The notes beneath the pieces are model-generated. The model was given only the letters and a program-made list of their open reading frames with translations, did not search any database and had not been told where the DNA came from. From positions 1-21,251 of the IMG/VR virus record IMGVR_UViG_3300020477_000158: a DNA stretch of 21,251 nt. One strand, written 5' to 3'. The translations under genes and the position numbers were made by a program. Within the stretch, counting starts at the first letter, position 1; each line of letters begins with the position of its first letter. The DNA is from a virus. This document shows positions 2,481 through 21,251 of this stretch, in pieces.

Positions 2481-3163
2481 ACAGGCTGTACAACTTCATC
2501 CATATCAAGATTGCCGAATCTTCTGATTCTCTGGCCCGGAAGAGACTGCGATTCCAATTTGTCCAACAAATCTTGGTATTCAGCAGAAGACCCAAGCAGT
2601 ATTTCTGGCGCTTCCTCTCTCTCGGCCCACATCGTTTTTGCTCTTGCGACGATAATTCTGTGGTACTGAGAAGGAATCACAGACTCATCTGTGTTCGCGG
2701 TCATCTTCGTTGGGGTTTTCCAGTAATCCGCAGTAATCGTGTACGCCTTGTCTGGCGGTGGATCGACAATCAGACTGCTGTCTGGTTGAACCACGACATA
2801 TGTCGGAGAATCATTTGTGGCAACTCCTTGACGAAAGTCTGCTCTCCACTCCACATAACTAAGTGTGGAAAGACTGATCGAATCATCTGTCGTGTAGTCC
2901 AGATAAAACGAGCGCATGTCCCAGTTGCCTAAATCAGTAGGCTTTGTAGTTGCGGGCGCTCTTGTTCCTGTCGATAGCGTTGACGAGTACTGCGCCCAAA
3001 GGAAGTTCCAGTCGTGCCATAAGGCTTGAATCTGGTAATCGGCTTCCGCAACGAAATCGACAATGACTTTTAGTTGTCCTTCCTGTCCAACTACTGTAGA
3101 TGGCCCAGTGCCGGATATACCGACTTCTTGCCTAACCGTTTGACAGAGTTCTAGAAATGTCAT
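2477..3163 (-). CDS. Head-to-tail adaptor (P22 gp4-like tail accessory factor)
   Basis: The 228-residue product begins MTFLELCQTVRQEVGISGTG and continues with a segment containing VDFVAEADYQIQALWHDWNFLW. The N-terminal 'vrqevgisGtgPstv' block followed by a helical 'A..qIQ..h.dW.fl' block is a recurrent signature of adaptor proteins below the portal of podoviruses. Known relatives (P22 gp4 and similar) bind the portal ring and receive the hub protein, which is encoded immediately downstream here. The start lies 32 bases inside the end of the glycosyltransferase gene, in another frame. The Shine-Dalgarno is weak, so re-initiation after the upstream stop is likely. Family membership comes from pattern and context. 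Confidence 0.65.
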   Translation of the reverse strand: MTFLELCQTVRQEVGISGTGPSTVVGQEGQLKVIVDFVAEADYQIQALWHDWNFLWAQYSSTLSTGTRAPATTKPTDLGNWDMRSFYLDYTTDDSISLSTLSYVEWRADFRQGVATNDSPTYVVVQPDSSLIVDPPPDKAYTITADYWKTPTKMTANTDESVIPSQYHRIIVARAKTMWAEREEAPEILLGSSAEYQDLLDKLESQSLPGQRIRRFGNLDMDEVVQPV

Positions 3164-4205
3164 TCTTTAAGTTCCAGTGGTAGTCGATGCTATCGACTAC
3201 TTTGCGTGGGTCTAACCGTGCGGTACACATCGCGCCGCCTGTTTCTTCGTGCCTGTTGCAAGTGGCGAATCCATAGTGCAACTTATGGCAGGGGTAACAC
3301 TCTGCGTCTGACGTGACTGCTGTTGTGTTAACCCAGTGTTTTGTCAGGTTCTCTTCCGATGAGTGGCTCAACATGACCACTTTCGCTACGTCTTCTGAAC
3401 TTACCGCATTCAAGACCCCTGTTTCCGGGCCAACCACTAAATCGGCAGTTTGAGCAAAAGCGAGGGATTGTCTTATTGACCAGTCACCACTTTTGCAGAA
3501 CACTTTTGGTTCTTTTTCCCAACCTACCTCAAGCATCTTGCATAGTTCTTCGCCTACCAAAACGAATCTCGCCATTGGCTCTTCCATTAGGTAGTACGCA
3601 ATAACCGAATCCATGTACGGATAGGCTTTATGGACTGACGATCCAGACAGGGCCACAACAATGACGTAATGCCCTGCGCCAAAACGCATGTTTCTCCGTT
3701 GTTCCGCGACCCATTTTCTTTCTGTAGAACTTGGGTAAAATTTTGTTTCAAATATGTGCGGAACTTTCGCCTTGCTGTGAAGTGCTTCAGAGTAGTTCTT
3801 ATTTAATTTCTTGTGCCGCTCTTCTTTGTCACCGTTGTACAAAGAGTGGTTTGGCAACAGCAATAATCCCTGCTCGATAATGCAACTTAGATTTATGACG
3901 CTAGGGAAAATCCTACGAAGTCGTTTCCAGTAAGGCCCAAGTTCTTCGTTAGGAATTTGATCCGTGGCTTGGATCAAGAGTTCATCGACATTCGGGTCGT
4001 TTTTTAGAATGGAGTACCCGTTCTCCGTGACATTGACGCAAACCTTTTTCCCCTGCGCTTTTAAAAGAGGAAAGATTGAACTTATTTGAAGTAGATCACC
4101 AAAACCGCCGTACCTAATTAAGCAGACGGTATTTTCCCGTTTACCCCCTAGTTCTTCGTTGCTTATGTCTTGCCATTTCTTTTTAGGGAGATGAGTTACC
4201 CTCAT
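3132..4205 (-). CDS. Glycosyltransferase family 9 (heptosyltransferase-like)
   Basis: This 357-residue protein has the two-lobed layout of GT-B family 9 enzymes, which transfer heptose or a related sugar from a nucleotide donor. The N-terminal lobe holds RYGGFGDLLQ (residues 31-40), matching the R-x-G-x-x-GD loop of heptosyltransferases. The C-terminal lobe holds LVVALSGSS-like donor-site strands near 182-190 and DLVVGPETGVLNAVS (255-269), the usual 'D..VgpdTG..H.A' donor-binding motif with Asn in place of the common His. Four Cys at about 303, 306, 316 and 327 (C-x2-C...C...C) form a tail that could bind a metal. It starts directly after the TAG of the upstream gene and overlaps the adaptor, so it is embedded in the tail operon. 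Substrate is unknown: host surface glycan, lipid or virion protein are all possible. Confidence 0.78.
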   Translation of the reverse strand: MRVTHLPKKKWQDISNEELGGKRENTVCLIRYGGFGDLLQISSIFPLLKAQGKKVCVNVTENGYSILKNDPNVDELLIQATDQIPNEELGPYWKRLRRIFPSVINLSCIIEQGLLLLPNHSLYNGDKEERHKKLNKNYSEALHSKAKVPHIFETKFYPSSTERKWVAEQRRNMRFGAGHYVIVVALSGSSVHKAYPYMDSVIAYYLMEEPMARFVLVGEELCKMLEVGWEKEPKVFCKSGDWSIRQSLAFAQTADLVVGPETGVLNAVSSEDVAKVVMLSHSSEENLTKHWVNTTAVTSDAECYPCHKLHYGFATCNRHEETGGAMCTARLDPRKVVDSIDYHWNLKNDISRTLSNG

Positions 4206-10794: not shown

Positions 10795-12402
10795 TCAATA
10801 AGATGGCAACGCTTCCGGCTCTAGATCGTCGGAATAAAACGTTTGGGGTGGCGATGCTTGGATGTCATAGATGCGTGACATTGCATCTAGCATGTCTACA
10901 TGCACCGCAGGAAACAGGTTGTACTCGTTATCAATCATTCGTTGCGTAACGTCATACAGCCTTCCGTTTTCGTCTTTCTGTTTTATTGGGCGAACAATCA
11001 GCGATGCATCGCCCTGCTCAAAGGCAAGTTTTTGCTTTGAACTTAGTTGATCTGATGACGGGGCCAGAAAGAAGCGCCAGTTCTCAAAGTCGGGCTGTAA
11101 TCTTTGTACGCGATCCCGTTTAGAACCCGGCCCTTCTCTCGGCCACGCCAATTCTTCAATCGGAAAGTAGTTGTTCTCGATCTTCATCATCTCCTTGAAA
11201 TGCTCGATGTCTGAATCTTTTCCGTATCGCTCATACCCGACCTTTACGGTTTGAATTCCGGGTTGGCGCAACCAGCGGTGTCTTAACTTCGTTAACGCTT
11301 GCCAACGCTCTTTCAGATTCAGCCTGTGGCACAGGCCATCAAGGAGATACTTGTTAAATGCGTGATCAATTCCGATAATGGCTATTGCTGTCCTATCGGA
11401 TGAGGCTTTTTTAGAGTGCGCCGGGTCGCAAAGAATGTAGACATTCATTACGCGAGGGCGAATCTCAATTCGACGTAACCACTCTGGGTCGAATACCTGT
11501 TCAGAACCCGCAATCGGGTTTTGCAACATCTGACAGGCCAAAACGTACTGACCCATCGATGATTTTTTCTTGTCCCATTCCCTCTCTGTTAGAAGGATCG
11601 GGTTTCCATCCGGAGCGCCAGAGTCGGTTGCGGGGTAGATACGAGTCTCGGTTCCGCGTTCTATTAACTCGCGGTAGGTATCCGCGTAGTGATACCGCGT
11701 ACCGATATACCACTCCCTGTTTTGACCACCCGCCAAGTTTTGTGACAGGTCGAGAGACTCCGTAGTTTTTGCTATCTGATCCGGAGTGTTCACCGAGTCT
11801 CTGGTTACAACATCGTCGTAAATTCTTAAATCGTAGTGTCGGGATATGGGCTGTCCGTCTACCAAACCCCATGCTTCTACGGTTGCCTCTTTAGGATTTG
11901 CTTTCCTATTGACGATGATTCCAGCATCTTCACTCCATTGTGGAGAGTCTTGCCTCGGATTTTGGTAGCAAACATCGGGGAACAAATCGCGAAGAAATTC
12001 GTTTATCTCAAACTCGCGTTTTATCTGTTTAAGAAATCCCTTTGCGATAGGTCTTGTATGAGAGAAGATGCCTATCGTGATGTTGGGGTCTTTCAGTATT
12101 TCCTGAATCGTTCCTGCATAAGTAATGATTGTGGACTTGTAATGCCCCCTAGCCCACAGATCAAGATGGCCGTCTGGGTTCTTCTCTACTTCTCTGCATC
12201 GGTCATATAACCAAGGATGAACCGCATCCTTACGGTTTAGAAGAATTACAAGAAGAAACCAGCGGTCAATCTTTGCAAGTTCCCGAATAATGTTCGGGTC
12301 ATAATTTTTTTCTAGCAGGTTCTTGTAGAAAGTCCCTGCTTGTTCAAGCGTTGCAGTTGGTAAGTACCCTTTAGCCTTCTCAATAAATGCGTCAGGCTTC
12401 AT
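10795..12402 (-). CDS. Terminase large subunit
   Basis: The 535-residue ATPase/nuclease motor packages DNA through the portal. The Walker A region is WARGHYKST (residues 83-91), the divergent 'R-x-H-x-KS/T' form seen in some phage terminases. The Walker B strand is YDLRIYDDVVT (190-200) with adjacent acidic D196/D197. A C-motif-like block follows near 230 (REWYIGTRYHYAD). The nuclease domain begins around 320 with VYILCDPAHS, where D326 is the likely first metal ligand, and continues SSDRTAIAIIGID and QPGIQTVKVGYERYGKDSD. The start lies 11 bases inside the upstream P4H gene. No separate small subunit is obvious in the window; one of the small ORFs could serve. Confidence 0.88.
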   Translation of the reverse strand: MKPDAFIEKAKGYLPTATLEQAGTFYKNLLEKNYDPNIIRELAKIDRWFLLVILLNRKDAVHPWLYDRCREVEKNPDGHLDLWARGHYKSTIITYAGTIQEILKDPNITIGIFSHTRPIAKGFLKQIKREFEINEFLRDLFPDVCYQNPRQDSPQWSEDAGIIVNRKANPKEATVEAWGLVDGQPISRHYDLRIYDDVVTRDSVNTPDQIAKTTESLDLSQNLAGGQNREWYIGTRYHYADTYRELIERGTETRIYPATDSGAPDGNPILLTEREWDKKKSSMGQYVLACQMLQNPIAGSEQVFDPEWLRRIEIRPRVMNVYILCDPAHSKKASSDRTAIAIIGIDHAFNKYLLDGLCHRLNLKERWQALTKLRHRWLRQPGIQTVKVGYERYGKDSDIEHFKEMMKIENNYFPIEELAWPREGPGSKRDRVQRLQPDFENWRFFLAPSSDQLSSKQKLAFEQGDASLIVRPIKQKDENGRLYDVTQRMIDNEYNLFPAVHVDMLDAMSRIYDIQASPPQTFYSDDLEPEALPSY

Positions 12403-13015
12403 TTATGGGCTTCTCACGAAACCACAAAGTCAAGCACTTCTTTTCGCCTGTCCCAACTGGCATTCCGCCATGCAAAGAATCAGGGTGCGCTTTGGATTTG
12501 TCTTTCCCGACGTTACTGAAAACCAACATCCTTCGAGCGCGGGGTCTTACGCTGTAGCCTAAAACCGGAAACGCTGTCTCGCCGCCGCCATTTTCTGGAA
12601 CATCGTTGAGATAAACCATCGCGGTGTAAATTCTCTGACCGCCGTGGTTGTAGTGTTGCCACTGTTCAGAGGATTGATCAAACGCATCAAAGTGCGGATC
12701 GTATTTTTCTCCCTTCCCGTAATGAAGCAACTGCGCTTTCTCTGCGTGTGACAACTCTGAACCAACAAACTTAGCAATACGACTGCACATATTGAAAAAG
12801 GTTAACGACTCTGTGTGGTCTACCCATTTGCGATAACCCGTTCTTGCCTCAATCTTTTCCCCTGCCCCATCTTCAGTGCAAACCGTAGACTCTTCCATGT
12901 CTTCAAAGAAAGAAAGCACGTCTTCTTTTTCTTCCTCAGAGATAAAGTTATCCAGAACAGTAATCCCGATATCGCCTTGGTAAATCAGGGAATTGGGAAC
13001 AACGGGAACACTCAT
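12392..13015 (-). CDS. Prolyl-4-hydroxylase-like 2OG-Fe(II) dioxygenase
   Basis: This 207-residue protein matches the P4H catalytic core, which hydroxylates prolyl residues using Fe(II), 2-oxoglutarate and O2. The iron facial triad is visible: H108 and D110 in YDPHFDAF and H182 in LHGGMPV. K192, ten residues after the distal His in HGGMPVGTGEKKCLTLWFRE, is the expected 2-oxoglutarate-binding lysine. TAMVYLNDVPENGGGETAF is the typical beta-strand block before the distal His. It is close to the minimal length of bacterial and viral P4H proteins, and no substrate-binding extension is present. Its ATG overlaps the stop of the proline-rich protein gene (ATGA), so the enzyme and a very good candidate substrate are made from coupled translation. 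Another hydroxylated substrate, including host proteins, cannot be excluded. Confidence 0.85.
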   Translation of the reverse strand: MSVPVVPNSLIYQGDIGITVLDNFISEEEKEDVLSFFEDMEESTVCTEDGAGEKIEARTGYRKWVDHTESLTFFNMCSRIAKFVGSELSHAEKAQLLHYGKGEKYDPHFDAFDQSSEQWQHYNHGGQRIYTAMVYLNDVPENGGGETAFPVLGYSVRPRARRMLVFSNVGKDKSKAHPDSLHGGMPVGTGEKKCLTLWFREKPINEA

Positions 13016-13761
13016 CCTTGCAACAGGGAATGCGCTCGGTTGATTTCTAGGGCATGGGCGCGATTACCTTTCTTGTTTGCCTCCTTCATGGCGCGAACAT
13101 AGTTGGCGTAATACGCATCGTTGTTACGATCCCCTTTAAGAGACTTTCCGGAGTTAGGCCCGGAATGTCCCGACCCATGCATGTATGTCCCTTGGCTCTC
13201 CCACTGCGCTCTTGACGCTATCGGCACTGGACTCGGGGGCGGCGGCGGGCTTCTCCTCGGCGCTGGCGGCGGAGGCGGAGCCGGAGGCGGCGGGGGCGGG
13301 CTTGGCTGTGGCGCGGCCTGTGGCGCGGCCTGTGGCGCTGGCTCCGGGGCGGGCGGGGGCGGGCTTGGCTCCGGAGTCTCAAACGGCAAAGTCTGATCTG
13401 CGATAGGCAAACTTGCCGGGGGCGGTGGGGTCGGCTCTGGCTGTGTAAAGCGATCCCAGTACGACCAATCGATGTTCATCCCAGACGGTATTTGCGAAAC
13501 GTAGTTGGTAACGCCTTCTGCGGTTGCCACACTCGGATTCGGGTATGCCTTGCCAGTTACCGGATCGTAAACAATGCTCTGAACGGTATTTGCTTGCGCT
13601 CTGGCGAAGGCGGGTGCGCCTGTACCTACCATGCGCTGGCCTTCATCCACCGGATCAATAGGGTCACCAGTGTCTACGGTTACTTCAACTGCCGTAGCCG
13701 CTTGGTTAAGAGTCTGCTGACGAAGTTGGGCAAACCGTCGAAGAAAATCGGCTGAGTACAT
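13012..13761 (-). CDS. Proline-rich two-domain protein, paralogue of the 13952-14767 product
   Basis: The 249-residue protein has three parts. Residues 1-105 contain a helical start (LRRFAQLRQQ) and the shared block IVYDPVTGKAYPNP then IPSGMNIDWSYWDRF. Residues about 107-180 are a low-complexity linker, roughly half proline, with runs such as PSPPPPPPAPPPPPAP. Residues 181-249 are a polar, basic tail (NNDAYYANYVRAMKEANKKG). The first block is repeated in the 271-residue paralogue. I know no function. Long Pro/Ala linkers are extended, so a virion spacer between two domains is plausible. It shares one base with the upstream stop (TAATG) and overlaps the P4H-like gene downstream by four, which makes it the leading candidate substrate of that enzyme. 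The G-rich strand is the plus strand. Confidence 0.75.
   Translation of the reverse strand: MYSADFLRRFAQLRQQTLNQAATAVEVTVDTGDPIDPVDEGQRMVGTGAPAFARAQANTVQSIVYDPVTGKAYPNPSVATAEGVTNYVSQIPSGMNIDWSYWDRFTQPEPTPPPPASLPIADQTLPFETPEPSPPPPAPEPAPQAAPQAAPQPSPPPPPPAPPPPPAPRRSPPPPPSPVPIASRAQWESQGTYMHGSGHSGPNSGKSLKGDRNNDAYYANYVRAMKEANKKGNRAHALEINRAHSLLQG
13289..13370. repeat. Short DNA repeats inside the proline-rich linker
   Basis: The 19-base word GGCGGGGGCGGGCTTGGCT occurs at 13289-13307 and again at 13352-13370. Between them a 12-base unit (CTGTGGCGCGGC) is repeated twice perfectly at 13306-13329, with nine further bases of a third copy. On the coding strand the 12-mer gives the AAPQ periods of the linker. 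The layout suggests the linker changes length by slippage or unequal recombination. Confidence 0.8.
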
Positions 13762-13955
13762 TACCTTTCTGCCTTTCGCTTTGTTTGGTTGCGAAGCATC
13801 TCAATCTGGTTGATGGCTTTTTCAGTGTCGTCTTCCATCGCGCTACTGATCTCGGCAATCTTTATAGCCGCCTCATCCAGTTCATCGAACTTGGGCGGCT
13901 CCTTCCTTCTTGTCCAACCAATGTTTTTTCCGTTAGGTGAAACATTAACTTTCAT
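13761..13955 (-). CDS. 64-residue helical protein between the two proline-rich genes
   Basis: The product is charged, with a basic C-terminus. It starts MKVNVSPNGKNIGWTRRKEP and has one long helix, DELDEAAIKIAEISSAMEDD through NQIEMLRNQTKRKAER. I recognise no family. The start overlaps the stop of the 271-residue paralogue (ATGA) and its own stop shares a base with the next start (TAATG). The three are therefore a tightly coupled trio, and a small partner or chaperone of the proline-rich proteins is conceivable. Confidence 0.6.
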   Translation of the reverse strand: MKVNVSPNGKNIGWTRRKEPPKFDELDEAAIKIAEISSAMEDDTEKAINQIEMLRNQTKRKAER

Positions 13956-14767
13956 AAGAATGTCCGATCCTTACCTTTATCTTTTTTAGGTATTTTGGTT
14001 TTCCTTTGGTTGTACGCCCTTGCCGCCTGAGCCGCTATTGCAATGTGAACATCTTTATTCCAACTGCCCGCCCCATGCTTTTTCTCCCAGTCCCGTTTGG
14101 CTTTGCCCATTTGGACTTTTTGGGTGATTCCCTTGTCGCGTGTCGCGTCCATCACGCCATACTTTTTAACCATGTCGTTAATGTCGCTTTGATTTGCAAA
14201 ATCTCCGCCGTAATCCTGTTTGCCTTCAGCATCCTTTTTGAGTTGCCTGTGCATATCGCCTGTCCAAGTTCCTCCAGCCGATTCAACCGCCGCCTTTGCG
14301 CGACCAAACATCCCTGCGGCGGCAAAACGCTTTGCCTCATCGGGCATTTGGAACGATTCTGGAGCCGGAGCCGGAGCAGGAGCGGATTGCGCCGCTCCAG
14401 TAGAGTCATGGGTGAACGGAAGGGTTTGGTCTTGCACAGTCACGGTCTGTGCTGGAGCAGGGGCAGGAGCAGATGGCTGTGCAAACTGATTCCAGTAAGA
14501 CCAGTCCACATTCATTCCGGCAGGAATCTGATACGAAAAATTCTTTACTCCGGCAGACAAAGCCGCCGCAGGATTCGGGTACGCTTTTCCAGTTGCAGGG
14601 TCGTAAACAATGGCTTGTGCGGTCTGTCCTGTCCACGGAGCCGCATTCCATACACCTGTTCCCGTAGGTGCGGTTGGATTAGCCGCTTTCCATTTTTGAA
14701 AGTCTTGAGTTCTGAGTCTCGACTGTCTTAGTTCTCGAAGCCTTTTGATAAATTCTGGTGACATCAT
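13952..14767 (-). CDS. Pro/Ala-rich protein, paralogue of the 13012-13761 product
   Basis: The 271-residue protein shares its N-terminal module with the downstream 249-residue one: a helical start (FIKRLRELRQSR), then AIVYDPATGKAYPNPAAA and IPAGMNVDWSYWNQF, then a Pro/Ala linker (PSAPAPAPAQ, APAPAPAPE) and the word DQTLPF. The linker is shorter and less pure than in its paralogue. The C-terminus (about 140-271) is different: it is basic, with GMFGRAKAAVESAGGTWTGD, YGVMDATRDKGITQKV and a KKDKGKDRTFL end. A conserved head plus different tails looks like duplication followed by swapping or divergence of the tail. Function is unknown. A virion or ejected protein is likely from the neighbourhood. 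The ATG overlaps the upstream stop (ATGA). Confidence 0.72.
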   Translation of the reverse strand: MMSPEFIKRLRELRQSRLRTQDFQKWKAANPTAPTGTGVWNAAPWTGQTAQAIVYDPATGKAYPNPAAALSAGVKNFSYQIPAGMNVDWSYWNQFAQPSAPAPAPAQTVTVQDQTLPFTHDSTGAAQSAPAPAPAPESFQMPDEAKRFAAAGMFGRAKAAVESAGGTWTGDMHRQLKKDAEGKQDYGGDFANQSDINDMVKKYGVMDATRDKGITQKVQMGKAKRDWEKKHGAGSWNKDVHIAIAAQAARAYNQRKTKIPKKDKGKDRTFL

Positions 14768-16100: not shown

Positions 16101-16180
16101 TCATCGCATTTCCCATCTGCCGTACAGGGGCAGTGACCCTCAAGGCAATCGGGGCAGTCACAGGATGTTTTGTCACTCAT
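16076..16180 (-). CDS. Metallothionein-like cysteine-rich mini-protein
   Basis: A 34-residue frame from ATG at 16180 to TAA at 16076 has nine Cys and one His. Its order is C-x-C-x2-C, then H-C-x-C, then C-x2-C-x-C-x2-C, with charged residues between (DGKCDECLCSKCK at the end). Such density and the C-x-C pattern are typical of metallothioneins, which bind Zn, Cu or Cd through thiolate clusters. It is shorter than the usual bacterial proteins (50-60 residues). Its first eight bases overlap the end of the 2OG-oxygenase gene (ATGAGTGA) and its end overlaps the start of the glycosidase-like gene, so it is neatly embedded. Metal binding is inferred. It could alternatively be a small zinc knuckle. 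Confidence 0.6.
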   Translation of the reverse strand: MSDKTSCDCPDCLEGHCPCTADGKCDECLCSKCK

Positions 16181-16667
16181 ATTTAACGAAGGTCTGAAGG
16201 GTTAACCGCTCCGGAGTATTCGGAAGACGGAGGGTTGTCTTATGGGGGATTTGCTCTAAGAAGATGACCAGTTTGTTTTGCTCTGGGGCAATCCATCTGC
16301 CGTCTTCCAGCATCAGTTCACCTCCCCAGTTCCGATCCCATTCGGAGACATAGAAGGTGATATTTGCGTCATGTCCGTGGTCGTCGTGCCACAGGATGCA
16401 GGAGCCGGGAGTCCAGCGATACATGAGGGTTTCGACATGCCCCACCTTCTGCCGCGACAGGCGGGAAACCAGATCGGCTATGCCCTCGTTGTAGTCCTTA
16501 AAACTACTCTTCCCTACGAAACAGGGGTTAACTTCGTTCCCGTCATACTCGTAGAGGGCTTTACTCCAGAACCGCGTAGACGTTTCCCAGTCGATATCCT
16601 CAAAAAATTGGTCGCGAATTTTTTCTAGCAAACTTCTTGGCAGGAAGTCTTTTATTTCGTGGATCAT
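16173..16667 (-). CDS. Second 2OG-Fe(II) oxygenase
   Basis: This 164-residue protein is a compact double-stranded beta-helix oxygenase. The Fe triad is H94 and D96 in ILWHDDHGHDANITFYV and H142 in LEQIPHKTTL. R154 in PERLTLQTFV is a good 2-oxoglutarate carboxylate ligand. WDRNWGGELMLEDG is the typical 'w...wGGel.l' turn of the 2OG-FeII_Oxy superfamily, and DFLPRSLLEKIRDQFFEDID is the usual N-terminal helix. It is distinct from the P4H-like protein 3 kb downstream, so the phage has two. Its ATG follows directly on the TAA of the 29-residue peptide, and its stop overlaps the cysteine-rich gene. The substrate is unknown and could be a protein, nucleotide or small molecule. Confidence 0.82.
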   Translation of the reverse strand: MIHEIKDFLPRSLLEKIRDQFFEDIDWETSTRFWSKALYEYDGNEVNPCFVGKSSFKDYNEGIADLVSRLSRQKVGHVETLMYRWTPGSCILWHDDHGHDANITFYVSEWDRNWGGELMLEDGRWIAPEQNKLVIFLEQIPHKTTLRLPNTPERLTLQTFVKYE

Positions 16668-20177: not shown

Positions 20178-21251
20178 ATGCAACACATCGAAGCACACAA
20201 TAAGATGTTAGATCGGCGGCGCTCATTTGTTGCCCGCTATCCTTTCTTCGGCACTCACGCCATGCGGCTGGAGTTGGTCGAAGATATCACCCAGCCCACG
20301 GGCTACACCGATGGCAAGGTGCTGGGGTACAACCCCCACTTTGTCATGCAGTTGACCGGCCCGCAGATCGACATGCTGTTCGCCCATGAGGTGATGCATG
20401 TTGTTCTCAATCACCCGTGGCGACGTGGTATCCGCGATCCGAAGTGCTGGAACATTGCAGGTGATCACGTCATCAACCTGATCCTAGTCGAAGAGAAGTT
20501 CTCGCTGATCCCCAACGTGCTGTGCAACCCTGACTTTGCTGGCCGCTCGACTGAGTGGGTGTACGGTCAGGTTTACCGGGAGCAGAACAAGCCGGACGAT
20601 GGCGATCAGCCCAGCGGTAACGACGGCGATCCCTCCGATGATCAGGGCGACGATCAAGACAGCGGTCAGCCCAGTGATCAGGATGGTGAGCCGTCCGATG
20701 ATCAAGGCGATGATCAAGATGGTGATCAGCCCAGTGATCAAGGCGGTGATCAAGATGGCGACCCCGGCGATCAGCCCGGTGACCCCGGCGGCAATCAAGG
20801 CGGTGATCAAGAAGATGATCAGCCGGGTAATTCTTCAAGTACTCCGACAGAGTATGGGCCGGACGATGTCCCTACTTTCGAAGAGGCGATGGAGTCCAGC
20901 AACATGGGCAACGTGCGCGACTGTCTCGATGATGACGGCCAGATCGATACGCAAGCCGAGATCGACAACAACCAAGCGGTGACGATCACGTCTTCGATGG
21001 AGCGCAAGCGTGGCGAAATGTCCGGCCCTCTCATGGAGCAGATCAACGGGCGGCTCGAATCGGTTGTTGAATGGCGCGAGTCGTTGCTGACTTTGCTTCA
21101 GAACTTCGGCAACGACTTCGACGTGACATGGTCGAAACCTAATCGTCGTTTTATCGGCGGCGGGGATTACTTCCCTACCGTGAAGCGCGAAGGGTTAGAG
21201 CATGTTGTGCTGGTCGTTGATTCGTCCTACTCGATGTCTGTCCGTGAGATC
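20178..21251 (+). CDS. DUF2201-type metallopeptidase-like/VWA protein (cut at right edge)
   Basis: The frame is open from ATG at 20178 to the window edge (358 codons). Residues about 18-135 form the DUF2201 N-terminal domain: FAHEVMHVVLNHPWRR carries an HExxH zinc motif (H70, E71, H74), and WNIAGDHVIN may supply the third ligand. Residues about 140-215 are an acidic Asp/Gln/Gly/Pro linker of repeated GDQ and DQPS units. After a helical region with RLESVVEWRESLLTLLQNF the VWA domain starts: HVVLVVDSSYSMS holds the D-x-S-x-S MIDAS loop (D348, S350, S352). Such proteins partner MoxR ATPases, as here. The rest of the VWA domain lies outside the window. Peptidase activity is not demonstrated for this family. 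Confidence 0.85.
   Translation, partial: MQHIEAHNKMLDRRRSFVARYPFFGTHAMRLELVEDITQPTGYTDGKVLGYNPHFVMQLTGPQIDMLFAHEVMHVVLNHPWRRGIRDPKCWNIAGDHVINLILVEEKFSLIPNVLCNPDFAGRSTEWVYGQVYREQNKPDDGDQPSGNDGDPSDDQGDDQDSGQPSDQDGEPSDDQGDDQDGDQPSDQGGDQDGDPGDQPGDPGGNQGGDQEDDQPGNSSSTPTEYGPDDVPTFEEAMESSNMGNVRDCLDDDGQIDTQAEIDNNQAVTITSSMERKRGEMSGPLMEQINGRLESVVEWRESLLTLLQNFGNDFDVTWSKPNRRFIGGGDYFPTVKREGLEHVVLVVDSSYSMSVREI
20593..20825 (+). repeat. GATC-rich low-complexity repeats in the acidic linker
   Basis: About 230 bases are built from short words such as GGCGATGATCAAG and GGTGATCAGCCCAG. Nearly every Asp-Gln pair is coded GAT-CAA or GAT-CAG, so GATC recurs about a dozen times, often as TGATCA. The uniform codons point to recent repeat expansion and not to selection on the peptide alone. 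Confidence 0.75.

Follow-up and report, generated by a model that had tools for sequence, protein, structure and literature searches.

A phage prolyl-4-hydroxylase gene and the proline-rich protein encoded just upstream of it as a candidate enzyme and substrate

Few auxiliary genes are as abundant in Baltic Sea phages as those for prolyl-4-hydroxylases (P4Hs), and their viral use "remains cryptic" (PMC9301287). What might such an enzyme act on? The locus described here raises the question in a simple form: a P4H-like gene adjoins a gene for a strongly proline-rich protein, and the initial annotation had proposed that the two make up a self-contained enzyme and substrate pair. The pair matters because phage P4Hs are abundant yet unexplained and because it can be tested in one experiment: two genes, a named candidate substrate and natural P4H-less relatives as controls put the question within reach of mass spectrometry.

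The window, by which we mean the whole stretch of 21,251 bases analysed, is an IMG/VR virus record in which SU10-type portal and adaptor genes are present. The order on the minus strand is a second 2OG oxygenase, a 352-aa gene, an HNH gene, a paralogue of the Pro-rich protein, a 64-aa gene, the Pro-rich gene, the P4H gene and the terminase large subunit gene (TerL), the start of which overlaps the end of the P4H gene by 11 nt; downstream of TerL, on the same strand, follow a 179-aa ORF, the portal and further genes up to the capsid. The features referred to below are these:

3132-4205, minus strand: 357-aa gene, glycosyltransferase-like by eye; no Pfam match, conserved in relatives
10795-12402, minus strand: TerL (phrog_38, E=2.9e-48)
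12392-13015, minus strand: P4H-like 2OG-Fe(II) oxygenase, 207 aa (Pfam PF13640, PDB P4H matches, fold match 3GZE)
13012-13015, minus strand: ATGA stop/start overlap of the Pro-rich gene and the P4H gene (sequence)
13012-13761, minus strand: Pro-rich modular protein, 249 aa, the proposed substrate (ORF and composition; no Pfam or PHROG match)
13015-13212, minus strand: its C-domain, approximately residues 184-249, of exchangeable type (C-domain clustering; predicted helical, model pLDDT ~79-93)
13216-13440, minus strand: its Pro-rich linker, residues 108-182, 39 Pro in 75 (composition)
13447-13761, minus strand: its N-domain, approximately residues 1-105 (alignment of relatives and paralogue)
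13761-13955, minus strand: conserved 64-aa neighbour (synteny)
13952-14767, minus strand: paralogue of the Pro-rich protein, 271 aa, with short PAPAPAP linkers (N-domain in common; 10 Pro in 60)
16173-16667, minus strand: second 2OG-Fe(II) oxygenase (PF13640, E=2.2e-8; phrog_274)

Is the first of the two gene products a working prolyl hydroxylase? It matches Pfam 2OG-FeII_Oxy_3 (PF13640, E=6.8e-16), falls in PHROG 61 (E=2.8e-19), and all eight of its sequence matches in the PDB are P4Hs (algal P4H-1, Bacillus P4H, human C-P4H-II and PBCV-1 vCPH). An AlphaFold2 model of moderate confidence (pLDDT 74, pTM 0.76) has as its best fold match 3GZE, an algal P4H with (Ser-Pro)5 (E=6.2e-16), and Foldseek ranks 1-36 are all occupied by P4Hs or prolyl hydroxylases, with a double-stranded beta-helix fold. 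The motifs are complete, as the initial annotation had it, with H108, D110 and H182 for Fe and K192 for 2OG, and all four are conserved without exception across 13 phage P4Hs (that of the window plus twelve others, 58-96% identical to it). Equally invariant in these proteins are E92, Y105, R128 and W198, which align with Glu127, Tyr140, Arg161 and Trp243 of Cr-P4H (chain position 114 in the alignment being His143), residues that touch the peptide proline or set its orientation (PMC5684110). Comparing relatives against the window's gene gives a dN/dS of ~0.04-0.17: the gene is under purifying selection. Given the P4H structure matches, the invariant catalytic and peptide-positioning residues and the low dN/dS, the product is very likely an active P4H. 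As had been supposed, it also falls within the P4H group in which the enzymes of known structure take extended Pro-rich or collagen peptides as substrates, and it retains the residues that position the peptide. On one related contig (L010, positions 1218-1840, the same contig as L036) the P4H frame is split into two overlapping ORFs, by a frameshift or a sequencing error.

The neighbouring product carries 47 prolines in its 249 residues, and residues 108-182 alone account for 39 (52% of that segment), which bears out the earlier description of a protein about half proline over some 75 residues. No other product in the window is strongly Pro-rich: the densest 60 aa of this protein hold 32 prolines, those of the runner-up, its paralogue, 10. 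Because the linker's Pro codons are mixed (CCG 21, CCA 10, CCC 5, CCT 4), the linker is not a simple DNA repeat. Searches of the protein against Pfam and PHROG gave no match, it has no counterpart among the isolated phages of the 'phages' collection, and a fold search with its full-length model, which is poor (pTM 0.32), found no viral fold match; two scans of genome contigs returned neither the terminase nor the N-domain in any cellular genome. The virion protein of the initial annotation thus has no family or fold match behind it. In relatives the architecture is modular, with a conserved N-domain followed by a variable linker and then a C-domain of several unrelated types. By alignment, the N-domain motif VYDPxTGKAYPNP...PSGMNIDWSYWD is common to the family and to the paralogue at 13952-14767, which stands in tandem with the Pro-rich gene, has mild PAPAPAP linkers and varies in presence among relatives. 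Elsewhere in the window, tandem repeats of 36-60 bases at 20598-20758 lie within a plus-strand ORF (20536-20982) and give a repetitive product.

Does the arrangement of the two genes tie them together? The P4H gene does start within the ATGA stop of the Pro-rich gene, the ORFs overlapping at 13015-13012, and this overlap had been read as a sign of pairing. That reading fails: where P4H is absent, TerL uses the same start position, the Pro-rich gene abutting or overlapping it in the same way. Since TerL occupies the same slot in P4H-less relatives, the overlap is uninformative about pairing and is a generic operon feature. The gene pair itself is found again in relatives, and this recurrence, together with the Pfam match and the low dN/dS of the P4H, means that it is not a product of chance.

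The relatives offer a better guide to whether enzyme and linker belong together. Our sample, anchored on the terminase, comprises 29 non-redundant relatives in which the linker is visible, window included; repeating the sampling with alignment gained few new close contigs. P4H lies between the Pro-rich gene and TerL in 13/29 and is absent in 16/29, where the Pro-rich gene runs into TerL directly or after a short gap. The densest 60 linker residues contain 22-49 prolines in 12 P4H-bearing loci and 13 in one (L054), versus 7-18 in 12 P4H-less loci and 22-38 in four. At a cut of at least 20 Pro per 60 aa, which was chosen after the data had been seen, this amounts to 12/13 loci with P4H against 4/16 without (Fisher p=5e-4; p=0.0016 counting L077 and L183 as P4H-bearing without a partner and L078 and L187 as neither). 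Tests independent of the cut gave p=0.002 (Mann-Whitney) and p=2.5e-4 (lambda 0) to 0.018 (lambda 1) in a PGLS regression, with p=0.008 against a Brownian-simulated null. A PF13640 search of the P4H-less contigs found no hidden second P4H, although the same search also misses the diverged ox2.

P4H state changes at least five times on the TerL tree, and nearly all independent pairs on supported branches have a linker that either shifts the same way as P4H or does not differ; there are only 4-5 independent contrasts, with which a sign test lacks the power to reach significance. The cleanest contrast is between two sister phages, L087 with P4H and a 44-Pro run and L069 with no P4H and an Asp/Ser linker, the C-domain of the latter being of the window's type. 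More broadly, P4H accompanies Pro-rich linkers across four C-domain types. The 12 low-Pro linkers of P4H-less loci are of Asp/Ser, Gly/Asp and Thr/Pro types, one with a 10-Pro run, while the four P4H-less relatives with Pro-rich linkers are L021, L067, L068 and L073, three of which have a KPKPKP block. Long Pro runs in P4H-bearing relatives (L006, L047, L087) use mixed codons, which argues for selection on the amino acid; those of P4H-less L021 and L068 consist almost entirely of (CCG CCG CCT)n. Four P4H-less relatives (L051, L056, L057, L074) have Thr/Pro-rich, mucin-like linkers (TTTPAPTT and TTKPPV repeats) in the same protein upstream of TerL.

Considering these patterns together, we think it more likely than not that the P4H hydroxylates linker prolines of the protein encoded just upstream. 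The proposal builds on the genes and their motifs, on the fold class and the purifying selection, on the modular architecture and on the association between P4H and Pro density. The earlier claim of an enzyme and substrate pair thus stands in part, carried by the P4H group, the peptide-positioning residues and this association, and weakened by the uninformative overlap, by the P4Hs of L077 and L183 and by the four Pro-rich linkers that lack P4H. At the site between Pro-rich gene and TerL, 13/13 linkers accompanied by P4H have at least 13 Pro per 60 aa, whereas the diverged P4Hs of L077 and L183 have no such partner. This asymmetry (no P4H at the site without a Pro-containing linker, Pro-rich linkers without P4H in existence) fits an enzyme and its substrate.

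Adjacent genes can move as one recombination cassette, so that part of the association may be linkage. Imagine that linker, C-domain and P4H simply recombined together, with no substrate and enzyme relation at all. A near-identical P4H is indeed common to the window, L034 and L035, though the terminase of L035 sits in another clade, and the KPKP block and C-domain of L021 are also those of the P4H-less L068 lineage. We nonetheless regard linkage by itself as distinctly unlikely, given that breakpoints differ and that the Pro linkers found with P4H have unrelated sequences (poly-P, (PT)n, PAPQ). Recombination acts inside the Pro-rich gene: between the window and L034, synonymous-site pS is 0.85 (saturated) for the C-domain, 0.18 for the N-domain and 0.09 for P4H, and the linker is still Pro-rich. 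With a saturated C-domain and a close P4H in the same comparison, the linker side and the P4H are therefore separately exchangeable.

How far does the pairing extend? It had been allowed that P4Hs kept by related phages without a Pro-rich neighbour would refute it, and in part this is what is seen, though at this site every P4H adjoins a linker that contains prolines. L077 and L183 (81-84% identity in the terminase) carry a diverged P4H upstream of an HNH gene (36% for L077), with no Pro-rich gene and nothing of comparable proline content encoded on the known contig, and the genes next to the P4Hs of Erwinia, Salmonella and cyanobacterial phages are not strongly Pro-rich. The pairing is therefore a property of this cassette and not of phage P4Hs in general. 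On L077 (3226-3897, 4555-5232, 5464-5796), where the P4H stands upstream of HNH, SET-domain-like and DXD sugar-transferase-like ORFs were noted by eye nearby.

The same unpaired enzymes, in L077 and L183 as in other phages, would be expected if the P4H were an auxiliary or takeover gene aimed at a host protein such as EF-Tu, with the Pro-rich neighbour a coincidence. Bacterial P4H structures that bind or modify EF-Tu (5v7y, 4iw3) are among the fold matches of the phage enzyme; however, the EF-Tu-bound P. putida P4H ranks 33, a weaker fold match than the algal P4H, and a host target leaves unexplained why P4H should track linker proline over at least five state changes. We consider a host target rather unlikely.

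Could the enzyme instead act mainly on another phage product, be it the paralogue with its milder Pro linker or some other substrate? In favour, a PAPAPAP linker is found in the paralogue too, and 2OG chemistry in this phage is varied, given that the window encodes a second 2OG oxygenase of sporadic occurrence. Against this, the paralogue is not seen in four P4H-bearing relatives with the region visible (L005, L034, L037, L048) and P4H tracks the adjacent linker, which makes such a target very improbable. The second 2OG oxygenase (16173-16667) can be dismissed as a partner of the pair: it is otherwise found only in L006 and a near-identical contig (L001/L079), with no match in the records of 20 other relatives. 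Two further candidates were discarded. A collagen-like substrate would need G-X-Y repeats, of which no window gene has a run of more than two triplets; and glycosylation of hydroxyproline by a co-inherited glycosyltransferase, the 357-aa gene at 3132-4205, finds neither a Pfam match nor a distribution to suit it, the gene being present in relatives with and without P4H alike.

If the P4H does act on the adjacent linker, how might it work? The Pro-rich protein and the P4H would be translated in series from one operon, and the linker, extended as a polyproline-II chain (P-P, P-A-P, S-P, Q-P, T-P), would be bound by the enzyme, which would convert its prolines to 4-hydroxyproline. The modification would probably stiffen or protect the linker, which would keep the conserved N-domain and the exchangeable C-domain apart. 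We infer the hydroxylation, its target, its mechanical effect and the final location of the protein. A more tentative extension, to which we give slightly less than an even chance, is that this phage lineage has a hydroxyproline system of its own, in which the P4H cassette is gained and lost in step with the Pro-rich linker and linker chemistry (Hyp-polyproline rod, KP, TP, acidic) is an evolving trait. Were this so, it would assign the first natural substrate to a phage P4H; were the pairing true, hydroxyproline-rich proteins would extend to bacterial viruses.

Several known systems help to place the pair. A literature search, with most subscription papers outside its scope, turned up no phage P4H described together with a Pro-rich partner. 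Other phage P4HA/2OG-Fe(II) oxygenases likewise belong to PHROG 61 and are phage-borne, but those examined are without a strongly Pro-rich partner. The EF-Tu-modifying P4Hs of Pseudomonas and Bacillus (5V7Y, 4IW3) have the same fold as the phage P4H; their substrate is a folded host factor, whereas that proposed here is a Pro-rich linker. Closer in kind is vCPH of the chlorovirus PBCV-1 (5C5T), a sequence and fold relative that is also a small virus-encoded P4H, although its virus, unlike the window's phage, infects a eukaryote. That a viral P4H can act on Pro-containing peptides is already known from PBCV-1, whose enzyme hydroxylates them in vitro (cited in PMC7019647); what is new here is the phage setting, a plausible Pro-rich substrate of the phage's own and the comparative evidence. 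PBCV-1 is also a sobering precedent, which may weigh against the pairing: the role of its P4H is unknown and its virions yielded no hydroxyproline (PMC7019647). The best match in both sequence and fold remains Chlamydomonas reinhardtii P4H-1 (2JIG, 3GZE), with which the phage P4H has the catalytic and peptide-positioning residues in common. The algal enzyme acts on hydroxyproline-rich glycoproteins, whereas the phage P4H, ~28% identical to it, is cytoplasmic, without a secretory route, and two residues past Trp243, where Cr-P4H has a His, the phage P4H has Arg200. By analogy, the likeness suggests that the phage may modify a protein of its own much as plants and algae modify the proteins of their cell walls.
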